Shown: positions 30,628 to 62,367 of the stretch, piece by piece | Layout: each line of letters begins with the position of its first letter | Position numbering within the stretch: position 1 is the stretch's first letter | From: Buddleja alternifolia | Lineage: Eukaryota; Streptophyta; Magnoliopsida; Lamiales; Scrophulariaceae | Length of the DNA stretch: 64,000 nt | Assembly (NCBI GenBank): GCA_019426215.1 | Contig: CM033399.1 | Coordinates: forward strand, 34,791,022-34,855,021 | Direction: 5' to 3' | Notes under the pieces: generated by a model | The model's database searches: none | What the model saw: the letters and a program-made list of their open reading frames with translations, nothing else | What the model was told of the DNA's origin: nothing | Program-made: the position numbers and the translations under genes

Positions 30628-31584
30628 ATTTTTTTGTTAAGACTAAAATAACCCTACATTAATAAATTAGTATTATCCTCAAATTAAAAAAAAATATTAT
30701 TGTTATCAATGAATGTGCATGAATTGAAATTAATAGTGAACAAACTTGTTCAATGTATATTATAGATTCACAAGAATATGAATGGGTGAAGACACTATGT
30801 ATAACTATAGGTGTTAATTTATATATCAAACAAGAGCAATGTACATCATTGTTATTTTTAGTGCCCTTGACATGAATCTCTTGTGGAAAGCTCGAAATCA
30901 ATTGATCCACAACCAGGAAGAAATCGATTTTAAGGGCTGACGGAATTTTTTTTTGTTAAGACTAAAATAACCCTACATTAATAAATTAGTATTATCCTCA
31001 AATTAAAAAAAAATATTATTGTTATCAATGAATGTGCATGAATTGAAATTAATAGTGAACAAACTTGTTCAATGTATATTATAGATTCACAAGAATATGA
31101 ATGGGTGAAGACACTATGTATAACTATAGGTGTTAATTAATATATCAAACAAGAGCAATGTACATCATTGTTATTTTTAGTGCCCTTGACATGAATCTCT
31201 TGTGGAAAGCTCGAAATCAATTGATCCACAACCAGGAAGAAACCGATTTTAAGGGCTGACGGAATTTTTTTTTGTTAAGACTAAAATAACCCTACATTAA
31301 TAAATTAGTATTATCCTCAAATTAAAAAAAAAATATTATTGTTATCAATGAATGTGCATGAATTGAAATTAATAGTGAACAAACTTGTTCAATGTATATT
31401 ATAGATTCACAAGAATATGAATGGGTGAAGACACTATGTATAACTATAGGTGTTAATTTATTTATCAAACAAGAGCAATGTACATCATTGTTATTTTTAG
31501 TGCCCTTGACATGAATCTCTTGTGGAAAGCTCGAAATCAATTGATCCACAACCAGGAAGAAACCGATTTTAAGGGCTGACGGAA
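30628..31584. repeat. Three tandem copies of a 319-bp unit
   Basis: Units start at about 30628, 30947 and 31266 and are nearly identical (single-base differences such as AAATCGAT versus AAACCGAT). Each runs from a T run and GTTAAGACTAAAATAACCC to AAGGGCTGACGGAA. The array abuts a LINE RNase H relic. The repeated minus-strand frames are a by-product and show no known domain. Confidence 0.95.
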
Positions 31585-51251: not shown

Positions 51252-51559
51252 TTGGGGTGGCAAAATGGTTTTGGACTCATGGGTCCAACCCAACCCAATA
51301 GGTTTTGGGTTGGGTTGGGTCCTAGAATTTTTTTGTTTGGGTAGATTTAGGTTGGGTTCAATAAAAGTTTAGGTCCAATTTGGGTCCACTATGGGTCCAA
51401 CTTAGGTCCACTCTAAGTCCACTTTGGGTCCAACATGGGTCCAAATTGGGTTCAATTTGTAATTTTTTTTAAAAAAACTTATATATAATTCTAATATCTA
51501 TAATAAAATCTTAAAATAATTATTATAAAATAAAAGAAAAAAATATAAATAATACCCAC

Positions 51560-51681
51560 CATATATATATATATATTTATATATATATATATACACGCAC
51601 TAAATACTAGAAAGAGAAAATAACAAAAATCTGAAAACAAAAGAAAGCCTACCAAAAGCCAAATATATATATATATATATC

Positions 51682-51713
<32 letters not shown>

Positions 51714-51771
51714 TATATACACTAAATACTAGAAAGAGAAAATAACTAAAAGCTGAAGACAAAAGAAAGAG
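51560..51771. repeat. Duplicated AT-microsatellite block
   Basis: (AT)n followed by CACTAAATACTAGAAAGAG occurs twice (about 51560-51655 and 51663-51771), a tandem duplication of roughly 110 bases. Confidence 0.85.
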
Positions 51772-52201
51772 AGATAGAGATCCCAAATCTTCCGTCCGCG
51801 TATCACCGGCACAAGGCCCACAACCCGCGCTGACCACCTCCGTACAACCCGCCGCCGCCGTACAACTCGTGGCCTCCATTGCACTTCAAGTTCATAGCAA
51901 AAGGTAATGGATTCTTGGTGTATTTTTATGTATATAACTGTATATATATTAGGTATATTTATTTTGTATGTATTTTTTTTTTTTGTTTTGCAAGCTAAAA
52001 TTCAGGTCTGAAAATATATCAGTAGGCTTATTTATTTTGGAAATATAGCAAATTGGCTGGTTTCATAGTCCAAAAAATCGGAGAAGTCAAAGAAGAACCA
52101 AATAATATATTTCAGTAGGCTTTTTTTGAATTGAGCCTTTTTTTTACCTTTGGCAGGAGATATTGGTTTGATAAATTCTAGAAATTGGCTTTAATTTTGA
52201 G

Positions 52202-54340
52202 ATGGAGAATGACAGTGAAGTCAACTCTTCGGTTGGATCGAGGGGTGCTAAAAAAAGTATTTCGTATGTTTGGAAAATATTCAAAAAAATTAATGAGAAT
52301 GGGAAAGAAAATGCGAAACGCAGAAAATGTGGGCAGATTTATGTTGGTGGTTCGTCAGGGACAACAAATTTAAAACGTCATATCAGAGATATGTGTCCAT
52401 TTCGTGATCGAAGTGGTGTTGAGTCTCCAAATGATGAATTTGACCAAAGTGTTTTTAGGAAAAAAGTAGCAAAAGCACTAATTAAACATAATTATCCCTT
52501 TAGATTTGTCGAACATGAAGGAGTTAGAGAAGTCTTTTCTTATTTGAATCCTAGTGTTGAGCATATATCACGGAACCCCGCAAAGGGGGATGTTTTAAAA
52601 GTCTACGAGGCTGAGAAAGAAAAATTCAAAACAATCTTAGCATCTGTTAGTAGTAGAATAGGCTTAATATCCGATTTATGGTCTTCAATTGTATCGAATG
52701 GATTTATGACCATTACTGCGCACTATGTTGACGACAATTGGGTTTTACAGAAAAAAGTGTTGATTTTTCGACATCTCCCCCCTCCATATGATAGCCAAAG
52801 TATAGGTGAGAAATTGGTTAATTTCTTACAAGAATGGGGGATTGAGAGGAAAATTTTCACCATAACTTTGGATAATGCGAGGTATAATGATGGTGTGGTT
52901 AATTTATTAAGAAACCATCTCTCGTTGACGAACTCATTGTTGTGTGTTGGTGAATTTCTCCATGTAAGATGTGCAACTCATATCTTGAATTTAATCGTAC
53001 AAGCTAGTTTAAAACCATTGACACTGGTGTTGAGAAATTTAGGGATAGCGTGAAGTATGTGAAAGGGTCAGAAGCGAGAATGATGGAATTTGTTGAGTAT
53101 GTGAAGCAATTGGGTCTTAAAACAAGAGATTAAATCAGGATATGCCCATTAGGTGGAACTCGGCCTATATGATGCTCGATACTGCAATTTTGTATTCACG
53201 TCCATTTTGTCAATTAAAGCTTTTGACTCCAATTATAAATGGTGTCCATCACCTGAAGAGTGGGGTCGAGTGGAAAAAATCACAAAGTTTTTAAGACCTT
53301 TTCATGAGATGACCGAGCTTTTTTCTAGAAATCAATACTCGACTGCGAATTTTTATTTTTGTAATGTTTGGCGTATACAAATGCTCATACAAAAGGAGAT
53401 GACAAGCACTGACCTTGGCATAAGTATAATGGCAAGAGAAATGAAGCCAAAATTCGACAAGTATTGGGAATCGTATAGTGTTGTATTGACATTTGCAATC
53501 ATTCTTGACCCCCGGTATAAGCTTTCCTTTGTCAAGTTTTGTTATCGGAAGCTTACTCGTCGCACGGCGACTGAGAAAATTAGTTTTTTACGAGAACAAA
53601 TTAATGCAGTTTTTGTTTGAGGAGTATTTGCATGCATCTCTTTCAATGCATGAACGGTCTTCGAATGTTAGTTCAACTACGGGGTTTGATGATGGCATGG
53701 AAGATGTTTTCGACGTGAGTAGTCTTTTATTATGAACTTTATCTTTATTCTTTTAATTTTATGTAAAAATCTTTACGAGTTACACTTTCTCGCAAGAGTT
53801 TGATACATATTTAAGTCAGAATGCAGATGCTACAAACCAATCACAATTGGGATTGTATTTAAATGAGCCTACACTTGAAAGAAGACAATTTGCAGATCTT
53901 GATGTGCTTGATTATTAGAAAGGAAATAGTGCCAGATATCCCGAGTTTGCATTGATGGCTCGTGATATTTTGAGTATTCCAATCATCACAGTGGCCTCGG
54001 AATCTGCATTTAGTCATGGTGGTCGAATTATTGGAAAATTTCATAGTTCAATTCTACCAAAAAGTGCAGAAGCAATTTTGTGCAGTCGTGATTGGCTTGA
54101 AGGTCTAGTTAACTTTCCATTTTCATACACAATTTTCTCATTCTCATTTGTGAAATATCAGTTGCAGCAGGTTAACGTATGTTATTGATATAATTATTTA
54201 TCGTTTCATATTGCAGCTTATAATTCTGAAAATGAAGAAGAAGAAGAACTCTCAATACTGAAAATGAAGAAGAAGAAGAACTCTCAATAGACATTGAGAC
54301 GTTGGTTTCCGAACTTGGCCATACTTCCATTCAGAGGTAA
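52202..54340 (+). pseudogene. hAT transposase (BED finger, RICESLEEPER-like) pseudogene
   Basis: 52202-53053 is open (283 codons): a BED zinc finger (KCGQIYVGG…LKRHIRDMC), whose first Cys appears replaced by Arg, then the RNase H-like core with ISDLWSS (first Asp) and TLDNAR. A frameshift near 53020 and a deletion near 53115 follow. 53153-53620 holds SNYKWCPSPEEWGRVEKITK and KFDKYWESY…ILDPRYKL. An intron is likely at 53717-53799 (GTGAGT…GCAAG). The hATC dimerisation region YPEFALMARDILSIPIITVA SESAF follows a nonsense codon (TAG for Trp) near 53917. It ends SELGHTSIQR at 54340. A 33-base tandem duplication sits at 54226-54291. Transposase is inactive here. Confidence 0.9.
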
Positions 54341-58335: not shown

Positions 58336-58822
58336 GAGAAAAATGCAAAAATTAGTCCTGTAACTATAGAAGTCTAGCAAAATTGGTCTCGTATTATTTG
58401 AATTGGCAAAACTGGTCCCGTAACTATCAAAAATTCGCAATTTGAGAACAAATTTAACCGAAAAGCCCTAATTTGGCCGGAAATTGGTCATGTGACATGC
58501 ACATGACCAATTCAATTTGGGAATTTTTTATTTTTAGGTCAAATCAGCTTAGGTGGATTCCAAAGTTGCCAACTCCATGTCAGCATCTTTTAAATAACTG
58601 AAAATAAAAAAAATGCCACATAGTAAATTCAGTCGGAAAATAAAAAAAATTCCCAAATTGAATGCCACATGGCAAATTCCGGCCAAATTAGGGCTTTCAA
58701 GTCAAATTTGTCCTCAAATTGCGAATTTTTTATAGTTACAGGATCAATTGTGCCAATTCAAATAATACGGGACCAATTTTGCCAGACCCCTATAATTACA
58801 GGACTAATTTTGCATTTTTCTC
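58336..58822. mobile_element. Foldback MULE-type MITE
   Basis: 487 bases flanked by the 10-bp duplication TTATAGGTTT (58326-58335, 58823-58832; 9-10 bp is typical for Mutator). The arms are about 160-bp inverted repeats beginning GAGAAAAATGCAAAAATTAG and running through CAATTTGAG and AGCCCTAATTTGGCCGG. The core holds AAAATAAAAAAAAT-type sequence. Confidence 0.9.
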
Positions 58823-59269
58823 TTATAGGTTTTGTCCATGTTACAGTCAAGTAGTGGACACATGACATGATCCATGGGTGTCACGTGCACTTGATCACCG
58901 GTTGATAGGTGGGTCATTGGGTTGGTTCAGGTCGGGTCAATCCGAACCCAAACAAAAACACACGAATCCTTTGGCTTTTTCTAAATATATGAGCAGTGTA
59001 GGGCGTCTATTTATAAATGGAAATACTACCTACATAATTATAATTAGAGGTGGCAATTGGGTGGATCGGGTCGGGTTTGGGTTGGGTCCAATTCGGATCG
59101 GGTCCAACTGGGTCCTATGCAAAAAAATTGTATGAAAGCTAGACTCATAATGGACCCACACAAGGACCCAAAGTAGACCTAATGAGGATCCAGTTAGGAC
59201 CCAATAAGGACCCAACATAGACCCAAAATTGGATTAGAATATGTTTTAAACAAGTTTAGTCAAGCACTC

Positions 59270-60462
59270 TTTTTACACACACTGCACACTTTTCACACAC
59301 ACTAGACATATTTACACATACACAACATACTTTTACACACACAACACACTTTTACACACACAACATATATTTTACACACACTACACACATTTACATATAC
59401 ACAACACACTGCATAATTTTTACACACACAACACACTTTTACACACACTACACATATTTTCACATACAATGCACACTTTTTACACACATTACACACTTTT
59501 TCACACACAATGCACATTTTTTACACACACTATGCACATTTTTTACACACACTACACACTTTTTACACACATTACACACAATGCATACTTTTTACATACA
59601 CTACACACTTTTTACAAACACTACACATATTTTCACACACAATGCACAATTTTTACACACACTACATACATTTTCACACACAATGCACATTTTTTACACA
59701 CACTACACACTTTTTCACACACAATGCACACTTTATACACACACTACACACTTTTTACACACACTACACATATTTTCACACACAATCCATACTTTTTACA
59801 CACACTACACTCTTTTTACATACACTACACACTTTTCATACACACTACACACGTTTTACACACACTATACACTTTTACACACACTACACACTTTTTCACA
59901 CACAATGCACACTTTATACGCACACTACACACTTTTTATACACACTACACACATTTTCACACACAATCCATACTTTTCACACACACTACACATATTTCAC
60001 ACACAATGCAAACTTTTTACATACACTACACACTTTTTCGCACACAATGCACACTTTATACACACACTACACACTTTTTACACACACTACACATATTTTC
60101 ACACACAATCTATGCTTTTTACACACACTACACTCTTTTTACAGACTACACACTTTTCACACGCACTACACACATTTTCACACACAATGCACACTTTTTA
60201 CACACATTACACACTTTTTCACACACAATGCACATTTTTTACACACACTACACACTTTTTACACACACTACACATCTTTTCACACACTATGCACATTTTT
60301 TACACACACTACACACTTTTTACACACACTACACACATTTTCACACACAATGCATACTTTTTACACACACTACACATATTTTCACACACAATGCACACTG
60401 TTTACACACACTACATACATTTTCACACACACTGCACACTTTTTACACACACTACACACTTT
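59270..60462. repeat. Left minisatellite arm (CA/T-rich plus strand)
   Basis: Units of about 20-22 bases such as TTTTTACACACACTACACAC and TTTTCACACACAATGCACAC, with almost no G on the plus strand. Stop codons hardly occur, so all three plus frames stay open for about 300 codons and repeat HTFYTHYT; these are not regarded as genes. Confidence 0.95.
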
Positions 60463-60473
60463 TTCCGTGAATA

Positions 60474-62150
60474 GAAAATGTGTGTAGTGTGTGTAAAATA
60501 TGTGAAAATGTGTAGTGTGTGAAAATGTGTGAAGTGTGTTTAAAATATGCCATTTGTGTGTGAAAATGTGTGTAGTGTGTGTAAAATATGTCATGTGTGT
60601 GTGAAAATATGTGTAGTGTGTGTAATGTGTAGTTTATGTAAAATGTGTGATGTAGGTGTGAAAATGTGTACTGTGTGCAAAATGTGTGTAGTGTGTGTGA
60701 AAATGTGTATAGTGTGTGTAAAATATGTGAAAATATGTGTAGTGTGTGAAAATGTGTGTAATGTGTATGAAAATACGTATAAAATGTGAAAATGTGTGTA
60801 GTGTGTGTAAAATGTGTGAAAATATATGTAGTGTGTGAAAATATATGTAATGTGTGAAAATGTGTGTAATGTATGTGAAAAGATGTGGTGTGTGTAAAAT
60901 ATGTATAGTGTGTGTAAAATATGTGTAGTGTGTGTATAATATGTGAAAATATGTGGTGTGTTAAAATGTGTATAGTGTATGTGAAATATGTGAAAATATG
61001 TGTAGTGTATGAAAATGTGTGTAGTGTGTGTAAAATATGCCATTTGTGTGTGAAAATGTGTGTAGTGTATAAAATATGTCATCTGTGTGTGAAAATATGT
61101 GTAGTATGTGTAAAATATGTAATATGTGTGTGAAAATATGTGTAGTGTGTCTAAAGTAAGTGTAGTTTATGTAAAATGTGTGATGTAGGTGTGAAAATGT
61201 GTAGTGTGTGTAAAATATGTGTAGTGTGTGTGAAAATGTGTATAATGTATGTAAAATGTGTGAAAATATATGTAGTGTATGGAAATATATGTAGTGTGTG
61301 AAAATGTGTGTAGTGTATGTGAAAATATATGCAGTGTGTGTAAAATGTGTGTAGTGTGTGTGAAAATGTGTATAGTGTATGTAAAATGTGTGAAAATATA
61401 TGTAGTGTGTGAAAATGTGTGTAGTGTGTGTAAAATATGTGAAAATATGTGTAGTGTGTGTAAAATATGTGAAAATATGTGTAGTCTTTGTAAAATATGT
61501 GAAAATATTTGTAGTGTGTAAAAATGTGTGTAGTGTATGTGAAATATGTGTAGTGTGTGTAAAATATGTGAAAATATGTGTAGTGTATGAAAATGTGTGT
61601 AATGTGTGTAAAAATATGTGTAGTGTGTGAAAATGTGTGTAGTGTGTTTAAAATATGTGAAAATATGTGTAGTGTATGAAAATGTGTGTAGTGTGTGTAA
61701 AAATATGTGTAGTGTGTGAAAATGTGTGTAGTGTGTGTAAAAATATGTGTAGTGTGTGAAAATGTGTGTAGTGTGTGTAAAATATGTGAAAATATGTGGT
61801 GTGTGAAAATGTGTGTAATTTGTGTGAAAATGTCATCTGTGTGTGTAAAATATGTGAAAATATGTGTAGTGTATGAAAATGTGTGTAGTGTGTGCAAAAA
61901 TATGTGTAGTGTGTGAAAATGTGTAGTGTGTGTAAAATATGTGAAAATATGTGTTGTGTGAAAATGTGTGTAATTTGTGTGAAAATGTCATCTGTATGTG
62001 AAAATATGTGTAGTGTGTGTAAAATATGTGTAGCATGTGAAAATATGTGTAGTGTGTGAAAATGTGTATAGTGTGTGTAAATATGTGTAGTGTGTGTAAA
62101 AAGTGTGCAGTGTATGTGTAAATGTGTTCAAGTGTTTGTGTAAATTGTGT
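60474..62150. repeat. Right minisatellite arm (GT/A-rich plus strand)
   Basis: Units such as GTGTGTAGTGTGTGTAAAAT and ATGTGAAAATATGTGTAGTG, the inverse of the left arm in composition and core motif, with almost no C on the plus strand. Slightly longer than the left arm. The switch point is TTTTTCCGTGAATAGAAAAT (60460-60479). Confidence 0.95.
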
Positions 62151-62367
62151 GTTGGGGGTGTATTAAATTTCAAACTAAGTTAGACCCAATTTGGACCCAA
62201 TTTGGACCCATATTGGGCCCAACTTAAGACCCAATTGGACCCAAAAATAAGTGAGAACAACCCAGTTGGAACTATAAAGAAAAAACTTAGGACCCAACCC
62301 AACTAAAACTTAGGTGAGTTGGGTTTGAAATATATTTTTGACCCAAATTGCCACCCCTAATTATAAT

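Follow-up and report, generated by a model that had tools for sequence, protein, structure and literature searches.

The DNA analysed here, a stretch of 64,000 nucleotides from contig C10 of Buddleja alternifolia (hereafter the window), contains at positions 59045-62359 a complete non-autonomous hAT element, in which inverted tandem-repeat arms account for about 2.9 of 3.3 kb. The family to which it belongs, with hAT ends and 8-bp duplications, is dispersed through the genome, and three features support its assignment to hAT: the duplication, the termini, and the existence of an element with similar termini that encodes a transposase. We consider it probable that this hAT foldback was moved in trans, that its transposase gene was lost and an inverted array gained, and that its satellite, which also fills a PIF/Harbinger-type family, crossed between superfamilies.

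The element in the window and its copies

The termini of the element, TAGAGGTGGCAATT beginning at 59045 and AATTGCCACCCCTA finishing at 62359, are complementary at 13 of 14 positions and are flanked by an exact 8-bp duplication, ATTATAAT, at 59037-59044 and 62360-62367 (both plus strand). The left end (59045-59262, plus strand) combines its terminus with 11-bp GGGTCC/GGACCC subterminal repeats common to the family, and the right end (62156-62359, plus strand) combines GGACCCAA-type subterminal repeats with its terminus. Between them lies one minisatellite that changes strand once, at 60466/60467. The left arm (59263-60466, plus strand; first clear unit at 59267) presents the CA strand in units of 20/41 bp of a type here called L, and the right arm (60467-62155, minus strand) presents the inverted satellite (TG strand) in units of a second type, R. 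Tandem Repeats Finder, run on the window, reported 20/41-bp units across 59265-60464 and 19-21/40-bp units across 60490-62152. GC skew in 200-base windows ranges from -0.80 to -0.94 over 59300-60399 and from +0.84 to +1.00 over 60500-62099. An earlier sequence-only reading had recognised hAT hallmarks at exactly these limits, with the same ends and duplication, and had described CA-rich units inverting near 60470, arms of about 1.2 and 1.7 kb, and a plus strand flipping from nearly G-free to nearly C-free. All of this was borne out, the arms measuring 1204 bases with 27 G on the left and 1689 bases with 21 C on the right. The interior contains nothing besides the satellite, and hence no transposase gene. 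Since the G-poor arm (59250-60487) stays open for 356-406 codons in all three forward frames, gene finders could call false proteins there. Two further repeats were observed in the window: an inverted repeat with 139-nt arms, 88% complementary and spaced by 186 nt, just left of the element at 58348-58811, which is perhaps a MITE, and three tandem copies of a 319-bp unit, 99% alike, at 30629-31584.

The arms could have been selected for the hairpin that they would form, as long double-stranded RNA or as a cruciform, either helping or restraining the transposon. The predicted RNA fold reaches -1553 kcal/mol, with 1097 of 1306 pairs across the switch, compared with -182 for a one-way array, and the same layout occurs in two superfamilies (see below); however, complementary composition alone gives much of this value, namely -1300 with the right arm reversed without being complemented and about -800 with shuffled arms. 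The Z-DNA part of the suggestion fails. The sequence-only reading had envisaged Z-DNA over (CA)n, yet long (CA)n tracts are absent: the longest (CA/TG)n is 5 in the window copy and 4-6 over the 20 copies described below, and the longest alternating purine-pyrimidine run is 12 nt in the window copy and 12-16 nt over the 20, on which account Z-DNA was rejected. Selection for the hairpin seems improbable as the reason for the layout. A silencing role of the hairpin RNA, such as the supply of 24-nt siRNA suggested in the sequence-only reading, is possible, and if small RNAs arise from the arms, one of the two satellite-carrying families could silence the other.

Searches for the termini were made over the 853.6-Mb Buddleja alternifolia genome. 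The 14-base end TAGRGGTGGCAATT gave 133+146 matches (279), compared with 4+5 (9) for a reversed control, and a 22-base left end gave 59+43 (102), compared with 0 for its control. Among 100 places listed for the 14-base end, 19 close end pairs were taken, which together with the window make 20 copies. In each of the 19 pairs one end reads TAGAGG and the other TAGGGG, so that the orientation of the copies is known. All 20 show a single C-rich to G-rich switch and measure 1.5-4.7 kb; MITEs are short elements of a few hundred bp, and this designation was rejected on length. One copy (L046) has a 2.1-kb non-satellite insert in its left arm and is still single-switch. The lack of a transposase gene in the other copies was judged by composition only. 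The search for paired termini that the sequence-only reading had proposed yielded 19 further satellite-filled, single-switch copies, and as all 20 pairs lie at separate sites, the element is a member of a dispersed family, neither a single oddity nor an assembly join.

Satellite lies behind the left end at all 30 loci found by it (the window and five of the paired copies included) and is present in six of the first eight bare end matches. The bare match L001 is apparently unrelated, and L008 is a 1,362-bp relative flanked on both sides by TTTAGAAT and devoid of satellite. The 8-bp target-site duplication is exact in 14 of the 20 copies and matches at 7/8 in two and at 6/8 in one; a clear ungapped duplication is absent in three (L039, L041 and L055), although by eye those of L039 and L041 would fit with a 1-2-base indel. 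Mean differences are 0.085 between left ends (35 of 41 used, the six without an anchor being dropped) and 0.089 between right ends (n=20). Plant substitution rates are about 6e-9 per site per year, which would place the age of the family, roughly, at some millions of years. Two places on C15 show duplication involving members of the family. In L036 (C15:18,893,125-18,896,352), around its positions 1700-1800, two members stand head to head with shortened left ends and about 45 bp between them; with 99.4% identity between the halves over 1259 columns, an inverted duplication of very recent date seems to have taken place. L028 and L031 (at 3.578 and 3.755 Mb) contain the same element, share an upstream flank identical at 100% over 1494 columns and thus count as one insertion, either a segmental duplication or a duplicated assembly stretch.

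Inheritance of the arms and origin of the foldback

Comparison of 8-mer profiles in 19 copies (L046 excluded) gave an agreement across copies of 0.946 for left arms and 0.954 for right arms, compared with 0.752 between left and right arms, within a copy and between copies alike. In Mantel tests, copies with similar left arms also have similar right arms (r=0.53, 0 of 5000), and each end varies together with the arm next to it (r=0.34, 62 of 5000; r=0.25, 100 of 5000), whereas the correlation between the two ends is only weak (r=0.16, 634 of 5000). In addition, unique shared 30-mer runs tend to occur in the same order in different copies, with a median tau of 0.52 in left arms (167 of 171 pairs) and 0.38 in right arms (146 of 171 pairs). 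Taken together, the agreement of arms across copies, the covariation and the 30-mer order indicate that the inversion was already present in the parents, and the arms are shown to be inherited as a unit. Collinearity was judged by these k-mer, Mantel and order tests in place of a global alignment of the interiors, which was rejected as proof because rotated-arm controls (0.896-0.918) were not discriminated from the true values (0.911-0.960).

Three older members of the family (E003, E004 and E006) have ends 72-81% identical to those of the window element. E003 is flanked on both sides by GGTAAAAT and E004 by CTCGAGAT/CTTGAGAT, and E006 has lost its right end. All three, when completed, have one switch, and the two arms of each resemble one another (0.88-0.945) and belong to the young left-arm type, reading LLLL|LLLL with diagnostic 10-mers. 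By the same 10-mers, young right arms are mainly R in 19 of 19 copies. The left arms of the young copies vary: in 12 of 19 the units adjoining the switch are of type R, those of L041, L042 and L045 have an R block containing L again inside, and four, the window's included, have no R block. The R type thus fills the young right arm and often crosses the centre, and since the older arms are all L, R is the newer variant. E003 and L068 have a common centre, TTTTACACATAC-TATAAA-GTATGTGTAAAA, of which a near copy occurs in E004.

One satellite site, on C11, lies 1.3 kb from a hAT dimerisation domain. The element there measures 5,362 bp, has TTAGGTAC on either side, and reads, in order, left end, about 1.4 kb of one-way L-type satellite, an opposite-strand transposase gene, and right end; the array thus sits between the left end and the 3' side of the antisense gene, and a right array is absent. 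A 511-aa exon encodes a BED finger and the hAT RNase-H fold, and Dimer_Tnp_hAT follows in the next open stretch. Because its ends are only 83% and 76% identical to those of the window element, the C11 element is kin and not a proven partner. A decayed element on C1 (L005) is arranged alike; its coding pieces show 62-83% identity to those of C11, and its right end was not found. Further relatives are one on C6, with a left-end match and no satellite, and one on C12, with the right end only and its left part missing. These four transposase relatives formed the comparison, five further ones on C8, at C10:20.1 Mb, and on C14, C17 and C2 lying outside it; as the array is present in two of the four (C11 and C1), the order of events rests on two elements. 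Among 140 listed hAT-domain places tested, five others lie 8.5-13.9 kb from an end or the satellite.

The window itself includes a related hAT remnant at 51255-54115 (plus strand, end approximate), 5 kb before the foldback, with a GGGGTGGCAA end, GGGTCCAA repeats and a broken transposase. It encodes a BED finger and an RNase-H fold and is 66% identical to the C11 transposase over 52202-53623. The GGGTCCAA subterminal repeats are common to the remnant and the foldback, and the remnant is kin of the foldback, not part of the element. Separately, a stretch of 251 aa that matches the C11 transposase at 96% identity is encoded at C2:7,227,013-7,227,992. A TAGGGG end lies about 0.2 kb away, and this may be a derivative formed recently by internal deletion.

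From the layouts of these elements, it is likely that a one-way array first stood beside the gene, and that the gene was then lost and an inverted array gained. The one-way array would have belonged to the ancestral autonomous hAT element, and a derivative would have lost the transposase gene and acquired a second, inverted array copy in its stead, for example by template switching during excision-gap repair. As the derivative would have kept both ends, a hAT transposase could still have moved it, and the arrays would later have varied in length through gain and loss of units. Marzo et al. (2008; cited in PMC4079207) proposed that foldbacks arise from transposase loss and lengthening of inverted repeats, and the putative course given here agrees with that view.

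The reverse order, in which the foldback was ancestral and the one-way transposase-bearing elements came later, a gene replacing one arm by recombination, is improbable. Older foldbacks do exist, and C6, a relative poor in satellite, demonstrates that an element may have the gene and yet no array; however, the C11 and C1 elements, whose coding pieces have diverged to the 62-83% identity given above, carry the one-way array at the same place, and gaining a whole gene with its flanks would be the harder step. Independent inversion of its own array by each copy after insertion was already disfavoured and is very unlikely: although switch sequences differ among many young copies, all 19 young copies examined have their arm types in one and the same order, the left arm of one copy agrees with that of another, and the centre is common to groups of copies. 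Least credible of all is a collapsed or mis-joined satellite whose strand was flipped by the assembler, for while assembly is difficult in long palindromes and in arrays of short units, the 20 pairs have unequal lengths at their separate sites, 17 of 20 have duplications matching at 6/8 or better, and left and right arms differ in unit type, in the same order in 19 of 19.

The satellite in a second transposon family

Among the satellite places listed, 48 are more than 5 kb from any listed hAT end, and four of these were fetched in addition to the C11 site. All four are single-switch; diverged hAT ends occur in two and none in the other two. Of the latter, L069 is 3,336 bp long, with terminal inverted repeats GGCTATGTTTGG.../GGCTGTGTTTGG... 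and TAA on either side, and L067 retains only a right end, similar to that of L069. The end core of this second family, TGTTTGGATTGATGGATTTGGA, has 73+84 genome matches, compared with 0 for its control, and pairs picked by their ends alone have the array inside in four of four cases; a fifth pair, of 5.5 kb, looks like a copy nested in another copy. A 3-bp target-site duplication is present in four of five copies (TAA, TAA, TCA and TAA), L074 having TTG/TTA. Among 105 DDE_Tnp_4 places tested, a single one fell within 6 kb of the second-family ends listed, where 0.23 would be expected. This sole place, L076, has DDE_Tnp_4 and Myb-like ORFs followed by an end 82-89% identical to the ends of five copies; one end was seen, without satellite on that side. 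On the basis of these domains with their matching end, and of the 3-bp duplications, the second family is called PIF/Harbinger-type.

The commonest 20-mers of the two families differ by one base. Of 7289 second-family 20-mers, 1162 are found in hAT arms, compared with 530-692 in 20 order-5 resamples, and 415-733 are common to the hAT sets when read forwards, compared with 4-14 backwards. Both satellites are low-complexity, and the 12-mer similarity between families (0.22-0.62) is below that within the hAT L type, as would be expected had two CA-rich repeats converged; against this stand all three observations just given, namely commonest 20-mers a single base apart, sharing in excess of the resamples, and sharing in one direction, and we regard convergence as a slim prospect. 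The hAT L-type arms are closer to the second family than the R-type arms are, in keeping with R being the newer type.

Five of seven second-family loci have a common centre, which differs from the hAT centre. The word TTTACACATAC lies at both families' centres and was left unused as evidence of a single centre, as the 89,650 nt of arms contain it 94 times. Two separate inversions, or the replacement of one centre, would account for the difference between the families. Since the same satellite came to occupy a PIF/Harbinger-type family, again with a single switch and with another centre, it behaves as cargo crossing superfamilies, and transposons would thus appear able to carry repeat DNA with them. 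A fuller reading, to which we give a little less than even credence, is that the inverted minisatellite is transferable cargo that moved between the unrelated hAT and PIF/Harbinger superfamilies within one plant lineage, and that its inversion formed at least twice, as the different centres would indicate, on each occasion yielding prolific transposase-less copies. If so, formation of a foldback would be a repeatable outcome of carrying the satellite.

A satellite 33-mer probe had 104 genome matches, of which the 100 listed fall at 86 sites; any of these has at most three, and arrays of diverged units would be missed by the probe. This distribution accords with the suggestion of the sequence-only reading that transposons were where the satellite was amplified and the means by which it spread. 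Of the 100 listed places, 52 are no more than 5 kb from one of 178 listed ends, although these neighbourhoods cover at most 0.21% of the genome. The idea that insertions had struck a satellite already in place was considered and rejected, as the duplications flank the whole unit. For copies of the satellite in other species, a protein search with its reading frame returned 4905 candidates, none at E<=0.001.

Comparison with known foldback elements

The sequence-only reading knew of no described element of this design. Among the papers listed in literature searches, judged by titles and abstract openings, there is neither a hAT foldback of this kind nor one satellite foldback common to two superfamilies, and to that extent the claim stands; it does not hold for foldback transposons with tandem-repeat arms, which have been described in Tetris (PMC4079207) and in rice (as cited in PMC10794571). 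The origin of foldbacks has so far been argued largely without transposase-bearing kin. With a one-way transposase-bearing relative, old symmetric foldbacks and young asymmetric ones in a single genome, the steps can be ordered. In addition, the presence of the satellite in a second superfamily allows direct study of how such DNA passes from one kind of mobile element to another, and of whether palindromes have an advantage or are a by-product of gap repair.

FB elements of Drosophila have long foldback-like inverted repeats, a feature common to them and the present element. Galileo, also of Drosophila, is alike in this respect; it belongs to the P superfamily and has several transposase-binding sites within its long terminal inverted repeats (PMC3688188), whereas the GGGTCC/GGACCC repeats here lie outside the satellite. 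The rice foldbacks and Tnat1 and Tnat2 of Arabidopsis are likewise plant DNA elements with internal tandem repeats, of less than 90 bp within the terminal inverted repeats in rice and of 60 or 240 bp in the centre in Tnat, and the passage of PMC10794571 that treats them makes no mention of a nearly all-satellite hAT palindrome. Minisatellites propagated by transposons are also known from the rice survey of Inukai (2004), in which, as described in PMC1940011, all 183 multilocus minisatellites reportedly lay within transposons; that description mentions no single-switch satellite foldback in two superfamilies. Tetris of Drosophila virilis, for which a link between foldbacks and satellite DNA was argued (PMC4079207), is similar in being non-autonomous with long inverted arms that contain tandem repeats. 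According to the same paper, Tetris has units of about 220 bp and a middle domain between the arms, was assigned to Mutator by its authors and yielded no transposase-bearing copy, whereas the element described here has units of about 20 bp, no middle domain, hAT ends and a transposase-bearing relative.
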